From assembly GCA_017554335.1 (NCBI GenBank), contig JAFZIO010000073.1:1-64000 (forward strand): a stretch of DNA of 64,000 bases, given 5' to 3'. Source of the DNA: Bacteroidales bacterium (GTDB taxonomy: Bacteria; Bacteroidota; Bacteroidia; Bacteroidales; UBA932). Positions within the stretch are counted from its first letter, which is position 1. The number at the start of each line of letters is the position of its first letter. The notes beneath the pieces are model-generated. The model saw only the letters and a program-made list of their open reading frames with translations, did no database searches and had not been told where the DNA came from. Below are positions 42,329 to 47,003 of the stretch, one piece after another. Both the position numbers and the translations under genes were made by a program.

Positions 42329-42468
42329 TTGCCTCTGAGAGGACTCCGCTCACTTCGTTCGCTCCGGCCCCTCCCATCGTCATCTGCGTCATCGCTGCGC
42401 GATAACTTGCTGACGACGGGCCCCACCCCCTGCCCGTGTCCGGGGGTGGACACGCCTCTCAGAGGCAA
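42329..42468 (+). repeat. Mosaic element with 14-bp terminal inverted repeats
   Basis: TTGCCTCTGAGAGG at 42329-42342 is matched by its exact complement CCTCTCAGAGGCAA at 42455-42468. Inside are CACTTCGTTCGCTCCGGCCC, similar to part of the uvrA insert, and the hairpin GTGTCC-GGGGGT-GGACAC at 42436-42453, which shares stem and nearly the loop with 9016-9033. GC-rich flanks extend to about 42560 with more small hairpins (GCCGCCCGC...GCGGCGC). No ORF of its own. It looks like a non-autonomous, module-shuffled repeat. The rest of the 42303-42702 stretch has no gene; a hairpin GAGC...GCTC followed by T-rich sequence lies at 42683-42710. Confidence 0.7.
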
Positions 42469-42702
42469 CAGCCGCCCGCAATGCGGCGCCCCGGCGCATA
42501 AGATGGAGGCTCTGCCTCCAGCTTGGTCTGCGCCGGACGGCTTTTATCCCATTTTTGCCGGGTGACGTGACTCGGGAGACTCTCAGAATCACGTCACCAG
42601 CGGTTTTCGGCGCTTTTCTGCGAAATAATGCCAGCGACGTGATAAAATGGGGTGCGAGAGTCATTTCGCCAGGGTAAGACAGTAGAGCGCTTCGGCTCTC
42701 CT

Positions 42703-42734
42703 TTTGCTTTGTTGATAGTTTATTATTATATTTG
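42703..42734 (+). promoter_or_regulatory. Full consensus promoter of the leader-microprotein-M64 unit
   Basis: TTTG at 42703-42706 and TATATTTG at 42727-42734 with a 20-bp spacer. A perfect 7-bp hairpin, AGCGTCC-TGA-GGACGCT (42740-42756), begins at the expected transcription start. Confidence 0.75.
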
Positions 42735-42739
42735 TTGAA

Positions 42740-42977
42740 AGCGTCCTGAGGACGCTGTACATATTTGAGCGTTAAGCTTGTTCCGTTCCGGTGAGTCTGG
42801 AAAATTCAAAGTAAAGGCGGATATAGTGAGACGCTTGCATTGGCTGTATTGTGGGCTTCGGCTCCTAACATAGCAGTGTGAGCTAATCCCTTATCTTCTT
42901 TACAGGCCCTCCAGAGTCCACCGGAAGGATAAGACCGAGAGGCTCACACTTTATGTAACCACAACACTAACAATAGA
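42740..42977 (+). ncRNA. Candidate structured 5' leader RNA (unrecognised class)
   Basis: About 238 nt of non-coding sequence separate a consensus promoter from the microprotein gene. Visible folds: the 5' hairpin at 42740-42756; a UUCG-capped hairpin at about 42846-42868 (GGGC-TTCG-GCTC); a 9-bp perfect long stem AGTGTGAGC (42875-42883) with GCTCACACT (42942-42950); and nested in it CTTATCTT (42890-42897) with AAGGATAAG (42925-42933), eight pairs including one G-U. The inner loop holds CAGGCCCTCCAGAGTCCACC. No T-run terminator follows, so translation control or RNA processing is more likely than attenuation. I do not recognise it as a known riboswitch. Confidence 0.55.
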
Positions 42978-43130
42978 ATGACTATTCACCACAATCCAGC
43001 CAAGGGAAGAGCGCTCTTGAAGTACAGTTCTCCCAGAATGGAGTTGTCTCCAATTGATTATGATTGTTTAATCGCCCAGTCCCTGATAGAGAACCCCGAG
43101 GACGGTGGCCAGTGGAACTGGGAGGAATAA
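42978..43130 (+). CDS. 50-aa microprotein upstream of the M64 lipoprotein
   Basis: ATG at 42978 opens a 50-codon frame ending TAA at 43128-43130, 3 bases before the next start. The peptide reads MTIHHNPAKGRALLKYSSPR then MELSPIDYDCLIAQSLIENP and EDGGQWNWEE. It has no signal peptide, is acidic at the C-terminus and ends in a Trp/Glu motif. Short peptides of the form Y-x-S-P-x-(M/V)-E ... S ... acidic-Trp tail are widespread just upstream of secreted-protein genes in Bacteroidales, with unknown function; the likeness is from memory, not a search. It may be a coupling or leader peptide for the large gene. Confidence 0.6.
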   Translation: MTIHHNPAKGRALLKYSSPRMELSPIDYDCLIAQSLIENPEDGGQWNWEE

Positions 43131-43133
43131 GCT

Positions 43134-46100
43134 ATGAAAAAAGCATTGTTTGCAGCTCTATTGCTGAGCCTGTCCGGTTGTATGATATCGGAGTTCGAAG
43201 AGAACGCAATAAGTCTGGGCCTCAACAGCCCTGTTTATACCGCCGCCTTTGATGATTCAGGCACAAAGGTTTATTCCGATACTGATTTGAAGCTACATTG
43301 GAACGCCGGAGATGAGATTAGTATCTTCAGTACTACTGGCAACCAGAGATACTCATTTGACGGACAGACCGGAGACCGGGAAGGTACATTTTCTGTTCAG
43401 GGCGATCCCGTAGGCGGCTCTGCTTTAGCCAATACTGTTGCTGTTTTCCCTTATGCTTCAGAAACTACTGTTAGCTCAGATGGCATCATTAGCTTGAATC
43501 TGCCGTCCGTCCAGGGTTACGCTGAGAACTCTTTCGGCATGGCTGACAATACTATGGTGGCGGTTGCCGAGAACAAGGATTCAGATAAGCTGTACTTCAA
43601 GAACCTGTGCGGATATATAGTAGTGCGGTTATACGGAGAAGGGGTGGTTAAGTCCATCGCTCTCACAGGCAACAACGAGGAGAAACTCTCCGGGCAGGCA
43701 ACTGTAACCGCCTCCTTCGGAGAAGCTCCCGTGCTCACAATGTCCGAGAGTGCCGGAACTTCCATCTCGCTCGATTGCGGAGAGGGTGTACCGTTGGGTG
43801 CCTCTGCGGAGGATGCAACCGAGTTCTGGTTCGTGGTGCCGCCGGTAAAGTTTACGCACGGGTTTTCGGTTACGGTAACTGACGTAAATTTAAGCACCCT
43901 CACTAAAAGGATGGGCGTTGAAAGGACAGTGCAGCGGAATGTTAAAACCTCTCTTGCCCCGGTCAAGGTCTCTCCGCTCACTATTACCTTCGATTCTTCC
44001 GACCTGGTCGTGATGCCGGTGAACGCCACAAGGGATATACATTACTCTATCGTATCTGAGTCAGACGATATCACCATTGAAGCTCATGCGTCCGGGAAAG
44101 TTGAAGCCGAAGTGGTGAATACCAATGCGAGAACCGGCTCCATAAAGGTAAAGACAGGTGATGTGATTAATGAGGCTTGCAAGGTGGTGGTGCTAGTTTC
44201 CAACGGCAGCCAGGCCATCATGCGGACGTTGAACTTCGAGGAGGAAGCGATTGAGGTTGAGGAGAATACCACGAAGGAAGTGACCGACGAAGGCGGCGAA
44301 GTGACGCTGGAATTCTTCTCCAATGTGTCTTGCCATGCTGTAATTCCGGAGGAGGCGCAAAGCTGGATTAGCGTTGCGCCGGAGACTAAGTCGATGGAGA
44401 AGCAGTCGATAGGCTTGATTCTTCAGCCAAATACTGGTGCTGCGAGAAGTGCGACAGTGAATGTCATGAGCGAAGATGGGACACTTCTTCTTCCATATTT
44501 GATTGATCAAGGGCCGAATCATGATTATCAGCTAGCGATTGAGCGAGAAGCGTTAATCGCTATATATAATGCTCTTGACGGAGACCATTGGGAGAACAAT
44601 ACTAATTGGTGTTCAGATAAACCTGTCTGGGAATGGTATGGTGTGGTAACTGGGGATAATCATTATGTAAATCATTTAAACTTAATTCAAAACTCAAAAC
44701 CAATGAAGGGGCAAATTCCTTCAGAGATTGGAAAATTGATTCACCTGAAGTCTATCAACTTCTGGTTGGAAACAAATATGGGATTACCTGAAGAGATAGG
44801 TCATTTGAAGGAAATGGAGCAATTTACATTATGGTTTTTTGACACATCAGAAGAGACTCAATTCCCGGAAGGATTATACGATTGTACGGGGCTTAAAATA
44901 CTGAATCTAACAGGAGCTGGCATCGGCGGTACTATTTCTCCCAAAATAGGACAATTAAAGAATCTTGAGCGGCTTGAATTGGGATCGAATAATATTTCTG
45001 GCCCTTTGCCAGACGAAATAGGGGAACTATCAAATCTGGAAATCCTTAACATCCGTGGATCAAAAGAAATAGGACAAATCCCGTCATCGATTGGCAATTT
45101 GAAGAAATTGAAGTCGATTCATTTAACTCATATGAGTGGGGCTATTCCTAAAGAAATTGGGGATATTCCCGGTCTTGAGGAGATTCATTTCTATAGTGAG
45201 TATCCAATAACCAGTATACCGGATGAGATTTACAACATAAAGACTTTGACATTCCTTGAATTAAGTTTCACGCAATGCCCCTATTCAATTCCAGAAACAA
45301 TTGGAAACTTGACAGAACTGGAATTCCTTACTATCAATTATGATCTTACTGGAGTAATACCTGCATCAATAGGTAATCTTAAAAAACTAAAGTATTTGAA
45401 TCTTTCGAATCCTTATTCGATGGGGAATGAGTCTTTGTCCGGTGAAATACCAGAATCAATTCAACAACTAGAATACTGGCCATATTTCTGGGCTGATGTT
45501 ATTTCTGGGCATCCAAAATTAAACACAAACAATCTAGCATTGCCAGCACCTCATATTCAAGCCAAAGATCTTGATGGTGTTATTATTGATACTGATGTTA
45601 TTTATTCAAGCAATCGACTGACAATCATCTATTCTTGGGATGAAGTATGTCCTGCCGTTCAATACCTCCATCCGATTCTAAAGGAAGCATTTGCGAAATA
45701 TAACGACGCTGGTCTGGAAATAATAGGTTATAATGGTGGGCAATACGAAGACTATATTCAAACTCTTGTAGAAAGATTTGATGTACCATGGAGAAATTTC
45801 AGTGGTCCGCATTACCCATTCGCCAATGGACAGACAATGTGCCCGGGTTTTATAACCGGACTTGCATTAGCGATAGATTCTTCGGGAACAATTGTTTATA
45901 ATACACTAACCGGCAGTTTTAAAGGTCTTGAGGACTACATTGAAACAGTTTTTGGTAATCCTGATTGGTATATATCCTCCGATTATTCCGCCGATGGCAC
46001 CGCAACGACACTCCAACAATCTACCGCCGGCTCCGGCATCGACCTAATTCTTATGGGTGATGCGTTCTCAGATCGGCAAATTGCAGACGGAACATACGGC

Positions 46101-47003
46101 AACGTCATGCTAAAGGCCATGAACGGTTTCTTCTCCGAAGAACCGTACAAGTCCATGAAAGACCGATTCAACGTGTACACAGTGAATGTCGTATCTGCAA
46201 CCGAGGGCTATGAGCACGCCGAACAGGCGCTCAGCACCGGACACGGCGACGGAACATACGTCTATGGTAATGACTCCAAGGTTATCGAGTATGCCAAGAA
46301 GGCCGTCGGCGAAGACAGCCTGGATGATGCTCTCATCATCGTAATGATGAACGAAGACGCATGTGCCGGCACCTGCTTCATGTACAACCCGCCGTCCGGC
46401 AACTACGGCCGGGGCCTTTCCATCGCATACTTCCCCACCAGTAGCGACACCGACACCTTCAACGGCCTGGTGTCCCACGAGGCAGGTGGCCACGGCTTCG
46501 CCAAACTCGCCGATGAATATGCTTACGAGAGCATGGGCGCCATATCGGCAGATGCTATTGCGAGCACTAAGGTCAACGAACCGTACGGTTGGTGGAAGAA
46601 CGTGGACTTCACCTCCGACCCGGCACAGGTGAAATGGTCGCAGTTCCTCAGCGACCCTCGCTATGCGAACGAAGGCCTCGGCTGCTACGAAGGCGGCCTT
46701 ACTTACTGGACCGGCGTCTGGCGGCCCACCGAGAATAGCATCATGCGCTACAACACCGGCGGGTTCAACGCCCCCAGCCGCTACGCCATCTGGTACCGTA
46801 TCGGTAAACTGGCCTATGGTCAAAGCTGGGAAGGGAGCTACGAAGATTTCGTTGCCTACGATCAGGTGAATCGTACCCCTGCGGCCGTTCAACGCCGCCA
46901 CGAGCAGGCTCGACGTCAGCGGCTCTCCAAACCGATGCCGCCGCTCGCTCCGCCGGTAGTTATCAATCATAGCTGGAGGGAAGAACTCTCAAAGGCCAAA
47001 TAG
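43134..47003 (+). CDS. Chimeric surface lipoprotein: fimbrillin-like, BACON, LRR, thioredoxin-like and M64 peptidase domains
   Basis: A 1289-residue lipoprotein (LSGC, Cys16). Domain order: fimbrillin-like N-terminus (about 30-290; WNAGDEISIFSTTG, LCGYIVVRLYGEGVVKSIAL); a beta domain; BACON-like domain (about 375-465); leucine-rich repeats with a plant-type cap (REALIAIYNALDGDHWENNT) and GxIPxxIGxLxxL units (about 470-800); a thioredoxin-like fold without a CxxC (about 815-945); and an M64-type metallopeptidase (about 955-1270) with VSHEAGGHGFAKLADEY. The zinc ligands would be His1115 and His1120, spaced HExxxH. The LRR/thioredoxin stretch (about 44.5-46.0 kb) is visibly AT-richer than both flanks, suggesting module transfer. 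M64 enzymes include IgA-cleaving proteases; the target here is unknown. Confidence 0.8.
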   Translation: MKKALFAALLLSLSGCMISEFEENAISLGLNSPVYTAAFDDSGTKVYSDTDLKLHWNAGDEISIFSTTGNQRYSFDGQTGDREGTFSVQGDPVGGSALANTVAVFPYASETTVSSDGIISLNLPSVQGYAENSFGMADNTMVAVAENKDSDKLYFKNLCGYIVVRLYGEGVVKSIALTGNNEEKLSGQATVTASFGEAPVLTMSESAGTSISLDCGEGVPLGASAEDATEFWFVVPPVKFTHGFSVTVTDVNLSTLTKRMGVERTVQRNVKTSLAPVKVSPLTITFDSSDLVVMPVNATRDIHYSIVSESDDITIEAHASGKVEAEVVNTNARTGSIKVKTGDVINEACKVVVLVSNGSQAIMRTLNFEEEAIEVEENTTKEVTDEGGEVTLEFFSNVSCHAVIPEEAQSWISVAPETKSMEKQSIGLILQPNTGAARSATVNVMSEDGTLLLPYLIDQGPNHDYQLAIEREALIAIYNALDGDHWENNTNWCSDKPVWEWYGVVTGDNHYVNHLNLIQNSKPMKGQIPSEIGKLIHLKSINFWLETNMGLPEEIGHLKEMEQFTLWFFDTSEETQFPEGLYDCTGLKILNLTGAGIGGTISPKIGQLKNLERLELGSNNISGPLPDEIGELSNLEILNIRGSKEIGQIPSSIGNLKKLKSIHLTHMSGAIPKEIGDIPGLEEIHFYSEYPITSIPDEIYNIKTLTFLELSFTQCPYSIPETIGNLTELEFLTINYDLTGVIPASIGNLKKLKYLNLSNPYSMGNESLSGEIPESIQQLEYWPYFWADVISGHPKLNTNNLALPAPHIQAKDLDGVIIDTDVIYSSNRLTIIYSWDEVCPAVQYLHPILKEAFAKYNDAGLEIIGYNGGQYEDYIQTLVERFDVPWRNFSGPHYPFANGQTMCPGFITGLALAIDSSGTIVYNTLTGSFKGLEDYIETVFGNPDWYISSDYSADGTATTLQQSTAGSGIDLILMGDAFSDRQIADGTYGNVMLKAMNGFFSEEPYKSMKDRFNVYTVNVVSATEGYEHAEQALSTGHGDGTYVYGNDSKVIEYAKKAVGEDSLDDALIIVMMNEDACAGTCFMYNPPSGNYGRGLSIAYFPTSSDTDTFNGLVSHEAGGHGFAKLADEYAYESMGAISADAIASTKVNEPYGWWKNVDFTSDPAQVKWSQFLSDPRYANEGLGCYEGGLTYWTGVWRPTENSIMRYNTGGFNAPSRYAIWYRIGKLAYGQSWEGSYEDFVAYDQVNRTPAAVQRRHEQARRQRLSKPMPPLAPPVVINHSWREELSKAK

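Follow-up and report, generated by a model that had tools for sequence, protein, structure and literature searches.

A conserved, structured 5' leader RNA preceding unrelated and often exported-protein genes in Bacteroidia

The purine, preQ1-II and SAM-II riboswitches have loop-loop or pseudoknot cores, and attenuators of the trp type consist of four mutually complementary segments, the 3:4 pairing being followed by a U-run. From Bacteroidetes, structured or palindromic RNAs are listed among the HMP2 structured-RNA candidates, going by the descriptions given of them (PMC8040213).

Here we describe a leader RNA encoded in a 64,000-nt stretch of a Bacteroidales contig (referred to as the window) and its relatives elsewhere. 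We consider it rather probable that it represents a class of cis-acting 5' leaders which would gate the start of translation, perhaps combined with attenuation. The large and strongly covarying RNA has no match in Rfam 15 and is found in numerous genera of a class that includes many gut bacteria.

The leader locus in the window

The leader lies between a promoter and a small reading frame, which is followed by a lipoprotein gene. The elements of the locus are:

42703-42734, + strand: promoter, TTTG (42703-42706), 20-nt spacer and TATATTTG (42727-42734), read directly
42740-42756, + strand: 8-bp hairpin where the RNA is expected to begin (inverted-repeat search)
42763-42955, + strand: conserved core of the leader RNA (covariance model R2, 162.7 bits, the window being one of the 10 sequences behind the model)
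42764-42772, + strand: segment 1, 6/9 pairs with segment 4 (42946-42954)
42768-42772, + strand: part of segment 1, 5/5 possible pairs with segment 2 (42831-42835)
42786-42792, + strand: helix S-A, with 42920-42926, 7/7 pairs in the window
42793-42807, + strand: hairpin I (conserved fold mapped on the window)
42796-42802, + strand: helix K, loop strand of hairpin I, with 42909-42915, 6/7 pairs
42811-42816, + strand: helix S-B, with 42897-42903, 6/7 pairs
42833-42841, + strand: segment 2, 9/9 pairs with segment 3 (42875-42883)
about 42842-42874, + strand: UUCG-capped apical hairpin (fold and alignment)
42875-42883, + strand: segment 3, with segment 4 (42942-42950) as alternative partner
42905-42918, + strand: hairpin III, second strand of helix K (conserved fold mapped on the window)
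42943-42954, + strand: segment 4, 3' strand of the core with a T-rich run at its end (alignment)
42978-43130, + strand: 50-aa peptide frame, an independent module (ORF and homologues)
43134-47003, + strand: lipoprotein of 1289 aa with BACON, leucine-rich repeats and Peptidase_M64 (ORF and domain search)

By consensus we take the two boxes to be a Bacteroides-type promoter. An earlier note on this DNA had proposed a promoter, a hairpin at the transcription start, a leader of about 238 nt, a UUCG-capped hairpin and a frame of 50 codons that stops 3 bases short of the lipoprotein gene, and each of these is borne out: both boxes are present 20 nt apart, the start hairpin has 8 bp, the leader occupies the interval between promoter and frame, the UUCG-capped hairpin is where it was placed, and the stop codon of the frame (43130) is followed by the ATG at 43134. 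In many copies of the RNA the UUCG-capped hairpin is reduced or absent. Just 5' of the promoter there is a hairpin AGAGC..GCTCT with a T-rich run (42684-42711), which looks like the terminator of a ribosomal-protein operon and touches the -33 box. The G+C-rich spacer 5' of the promoter also contains inverted repeats (42329-42468 / 42558-42673; 14 nt exact, 13 nt at 92%).

The leader (42737-42985) folds with -86.1 kcal/mol, compared with -63.4 ± 4.4 kcal/mol for shuffled sequences (z -5.1), and none of 200 shuffles was as stable. The earlier note had drawn a two-layer long-range stem as the fold of this RNA. Its complementarity is real (outer 9 nt 100%, inner layer 7/7), but the strands pair elsewhere in the lowest-energy fold, namely 42875-42883 with 42833-42841 and the segment 4 strand with the 5' end of the leader. 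The stem as drawn is a competing alternative (3:4 plus arm III), less stable in the window than the rod (-61.1 versus -65.2 kcal/mol).

Distribution, conserved fold and competing pairings

By BLASTN the leader together with the frame was matched in 16 of 249 relatives, the own genome counted. Covariance model R2, built from ten correctly oriented sequences including one from an Alistipes MAG (L030), matched 113 of 393 genomes of the order, in 68 of 206 genera, and 20 of 247 genomes of the class (5 of these 20 from the window's own order); these counts are lower bounds because the filters were strict and few candidates were scored per genome, and the weak matches among them may include false ones. 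The leader had been called one of a conserved type, and homologous leaders were found accordingly. Fuller scoring of twelve genomes, picked for having R2 matches, gave 1 to 21 places per genome. The window's own genome carries a second copy (L171, 2807-3025, - strand) 48 nt 5' of an ORF with an export-like start. Beyond the order the RNA looks similar by eye. A weaker R2 match (32.5 bits, E 9.7e-7) was obtained in a Bacteroidaceae MAG (L029) upstream of an LRR-M64 lipoprotein like that of the window, where it ends 64 nt 5' of the ATG with no peptide between. Tandem copies before one gene were seen at L088 (1501-1655 and 1280-1454), L096 (2501-2696 and 2870-3060) and G572:C817 (254-408 and 458-633), an arrangement known for some riboswitches.

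One copy (L072) searched in plasmids gave no match, and two exact patterns searched in viral contigs found nothing. Another copy (L071) searched in phages had a single match, on the unverified metagenomic scaffold MT838511.1. This copy (L184, 1861-2057) lies on a scaffold that was deposited as an unverified bacteriophage without annotation and may be bacterial.

As the earlier note had led us to expect, Rfam 15 contained no match to the leader core, neither for the window (up to E 5) nor for its relatives (8 loci to E 2 and 20 loci to E 0.5, and at the gathering score for 20 loci). The leader RNA is also not described in those parts of the literature that were covered (among others PMC8040213, PMC9723704, PMC7366714 and PMC2864571).

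The fold was assessed in an alignment (A7) of 99 copies from 98 sources, 98 of them distinct, which was drawn from best-scoring matches and fitted to the rod model; the shuffled controls keep the relatedness of the copies. The native structure has 54 pairs. Over the 98 distinct copies 92.1% of 5172 cells are paired, compared with 71.3% after shuffling, and covariation is 0.585 versus 0.199 (0.070-0.109 for slid versions). The covariation that the earlier note had asked for in the stems is therefore present, in the native fold, and such compensatory changes in a conserved leader structure are those of a cis-regulatory 5' leader RNA. Helices S-A (98.1% paired) and S-B (92.5%), both with all four Watson-Crick types in bulk, flank hairpins I and III, whose stems covary as well (A-U 56/G-C 26 and U-A 50/C-G 29/G-C 7). 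The loops of both hairpins are joined by helix K, 7 bp long and 98.2% paired, in which G-C, C-G, A-U and U-A all occur. Helix K fits a plain nested rod too, so that we infer the simultaneous kissing of the two loops in one molecule. In several copies (e.g. L077, L086, L129) ACATA 5' and TATGT 3' of the core lengthen the base of the rod by eye.

Four segments of the core are mutually complementary and can pair either as 1:4 and 2:3, giving the rod, or as 1:2 and 3:4. In the window the pairs formed are 6/9 for 1:4, 9/9 for 2:3, 5/5 for 1:2 and 8/8 for 3:4. These competing pairings raise the question of a transcription attenuator with a logic like that of the trp attenuator: 1:2 and 3:4, the latter a hairpin followed by the U-run, would terminate transcription, while the rod of 2:3 and 1:4 would let it read through, and either the core or ribosomes at a mini-ORF 5' of it would receive the signal. 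The alternative helices do exceed their shuffles (85.0% versus 80.4% paired, covariation 0.299 versus 0.222), and two 3:4 pairs covary with ten genus copies excluded (p 1.2e-4 and 1.6e-3). Conservation of T at the end of segment 4 exceeds that of A where segment 1 begins (92 and 81 versus 65 and 43 of 98 copies), and ATG(NNN)stop occurs 5' of the core in 36 of 97 copies, compared with 20.3 in shuffled sequences (maximum 29), which would also suit an attenuator. Against this, 77 of 82 copies favour the rod over 3:4 energetically, by a median of 14 kcal/mol (16 of the 98 copies, with fewer than five 3:4 pairs, were dropped). Where a 1:4 pair is broken by C.A (28 copies), the corresponding 3:4 pair is retained in 14, lost in 13 and a gap in 1. 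Moreover, the docking hairpin described below lies 3' of the U-run and therefore could not act on termination there. We regard an attenuator of this kind as unlikely. The 1:2 / 3:4 pairing is weakly supported as an alternative and is not the resting state.

No leader peptide with regulatory amino-acid codons was seen in the 97 copies, only start-stop mini-ORFs upstream (ATGACATAA, ATGTAA and similar; e.g. L073, L082, L083, L105), and these could instead be a DNA or RNA motif. Attenuation controlled by the peptide was set aside, no support for it having been found.

Downstream genes, the docking hairpin and the peptide module

In 87 of 99 copies the first ORF downstream shares the strand of the RNA (opposite in 5, none within the stretch in 7), as it does in 29 of 30 copies of a second set, ORFs being called crudely (ATG, at least 60 aa, longest first). 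The strand of the upstream gene is unbiased (48 +, 51 - or none). In 48 of the 87 cases the distance to the same-strand ORF is 45-70 nt. A TAnnTTTG motif occurs within 89 nt upstream in 72 of 97 copies (two of the 99 dropped for too short flanks), whereas composition-shuffled sequences gave a mean of 5.2 and a maximum of 12. This same-strand position upstream of ORFs is again that of a cis-regulatory 5' leader RNA.

Two explanations in which the neighbouring genes play no part can be judged on these observations. A mobile palindromic DNA element of the MITE or REP type could account for the self-complementarity, the many copies and tandem pairs, and the location of several copies near contig ends. 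No strand preference is expected of such a palindrome, while the alignment contains 498 G.U cells against 122 A.C cells, an excess that points to selection on this RNA strand. Given this excess, the one-sided orientation and the attached promoter, we set the mobile element aside as hardly credible. A free-standing small RNA, a rod like 6S RNA with incidental neighbours, would agree with the shape, the own promoter and the weak match of the downstream genes to each other. The orientation, the preferred spacing and the pairing partner downstream of the core (see below) all contradict it, and 6S RNA of Bacteroides is, as described, already known as another RNA (PMC7366714). It was set aside on the orientation and spacing to ORFs, as very improbable.

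The RNA precedes many unrelated ORFs and not one gene family. A strongly hydrophobic N-terminus, which is only a proxy for export and is missing from about one third of the downstream products, was found in 61 of 87 of them compared with 8 of 29 upstream neighbours, only those with a known start being considered (p 7.5e-5). The earlier note was right to see in the window a conserved and structured leader lying in cis upstream of a gene for an exported protein, but the RNA is not confined to this lipoprotein. Since the leader recurs before many different genes, often for exported proteins, it probably controls their expression. It might be argued that the leader is an unregulated stabiliser or ribosome-recruiting element which merely boosts the expression of acquired genes; the variety of these genes, the large number of copies (as many as 21 places in a single genome) and the strong promoter context would all be understandable. 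Yet compensated long helices and competing pairings exceed the needs of a stabiliser, and we think this explanation quite unlikely.

Some downstream regions deserve mention. At L073 (1388-1456, - strand) and L074 (1704-1769) a DUF805 RNA (RF03081) separates the RNA core from the ORF. Behind the RNA at L064 (1501-1703, - strand) come first a 41-aa frame containing three cysteines and next a 438-aa ORF whose product resembles a peptide-modification protein. The ORFs behind the RNA at L012, L158 and L159 resemble restriction-system DNA methyltransferases.

Many copies have a further hairpin 3' of the core. A stretch in this region can pair with the 5' part of segment 4, and the two vary together across the copies: the mean helix score is 15.14, compared with 12.06 ± 0.22 for swapped partners (98 copies, z 13.9), and in 129 copies z is 12.9. 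Taken singly, 25 of the 129 copies score above the 95th percentile for swapped partners, and in 9 of these 25 the pairing stretch falls inside a predicted hairpin loop (152 of 645 for random positions), so that the docking pairing rests on the whole set. The docking stretch ends a median of 24 nt 5' of the start codon (quartiles 21-33), as measured in the 77 of 129 copies with a score of 15 or more and a start codon. In the window copy the best partner scores 13.7, the level of swapped pairs, and no partner is visible. The AUG of the window peptide, 23 nt past the core, sits where the docking partner usually begins, so this copy may work differently.

The peptide was matched in 8 of 249 relatives. 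Six peptides including that of the window have 13 invariant columns in common, and a profile made from these six found matches in 14 of 200 genomes of the genus, that of the window among them. At 14 of 15 distinct places a frame of 40-70 aa directly precedes a lipoprotein-like ORF (seen at L022-L026, L189 and L191-L198), in keeping with the conserved peptide that had been claimed; the spacing ranges from a 19-nt overlap to a 23-nt gap, and the ORFs read 333-505 codons, most of them still open where the fetched sequence ends. At L190 the frame is interrupted by a stop. Two of seven peptide matches, L027 and L028 (E 0.004 and 0.078), were dropped as no ORF followed. The tight spacing suggests that translation of the peptide and of the lipoprotein is probably coupled. 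For the window peptide neither Pfam nor NCBIfam gave a family match, and for six varied peptides NCBIfam gave none.

The earlier note had treated RNA and peptide as one arrangement. The 19 peptide loci (15 different places, four of them fetched twice) gave no R2 match to E 1, and therefore the two are independent modules that sometimes meet. Among the loci inspected they occur together with the lipoprotein only in the window, L030, L045 and probably L061. The microproteins encoded directly before lipoprotein-like genes can thus be separated out as a second module.

A possible mechanism and comparison with known systems

Gating of translation by a cis-acting leader might proceed as follows. Leaders of this kind, present in many genera of the class, have a promoter of their own and fold into a long rod, in the middle of which two facing hairpins pair loop to loop. 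Helix K is best read as a pair of kissing hairpins that meet at a four-way junction, and the paired loops are where a ligand or protein would most likely be recognised. In many copies the loop of the further hairpin would dock at the rod's foot, on the 5' portion of segment 4. Docking at the edge of the ribosome footprint, about 24 nt before the start codon, would then set the start of translation, and the competing 2:3 and 3:4 pairings with the U-run after 3:4 could provide a second, transcriptional exit. We infer the level and direction of this control, as well as a common trans signal, from the arrangement of the elements; that such a signal is shared is suggested by the number of copies that precede genes for unrelated and often exported products. 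Tentatively, these leaders could constitute an RNA-controlled regulon of the Bacteroidia, in which bistable kissing-loop leaders at up to 21 places per genome would allow one ligand or RNA-binding protein to set jointly the expression of many genes for unrelated surface, exported and accessory products. Exact contacts within the leader are given by the helices mapped here (K, S-A, S-B, the docking loop and the competing stems).

Within a known kind of element the leader forms a family that is new with respect to Rfam 15 and to the literature covered. It may be distinct from the HMP2 candidates, which as described are 38-132 nt long and lie near other genes (PMC8040213). It resembles 6S RNA in its rod-like fold and own promoter and differs in being positioned and oriented before ORFs. 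Like DUF805 RNA (RF03081) it is a cis element before related genes, but DUF805 RNA is a separate 68-nt element and the leader core does not match it. With the trp-type attenuator it shares the four mutually complementary segments and the U-run after 3:4; unlike there, the rod is far more stable than 3:4, a loop-loop helix and a docking hairpin are added, and no regulatory peptide with amino-acid codons is seen. Compared with the purine, preQ1-II and SAM-II riboswitches the rod is much longer, no shared sequence was seen, and the downstream genes have no common pathway and are too varied to hint at a ligand. What the leader has in common with these riboswitches is the 5' leader position, a compact core with loop contacts and an element near the start codon.
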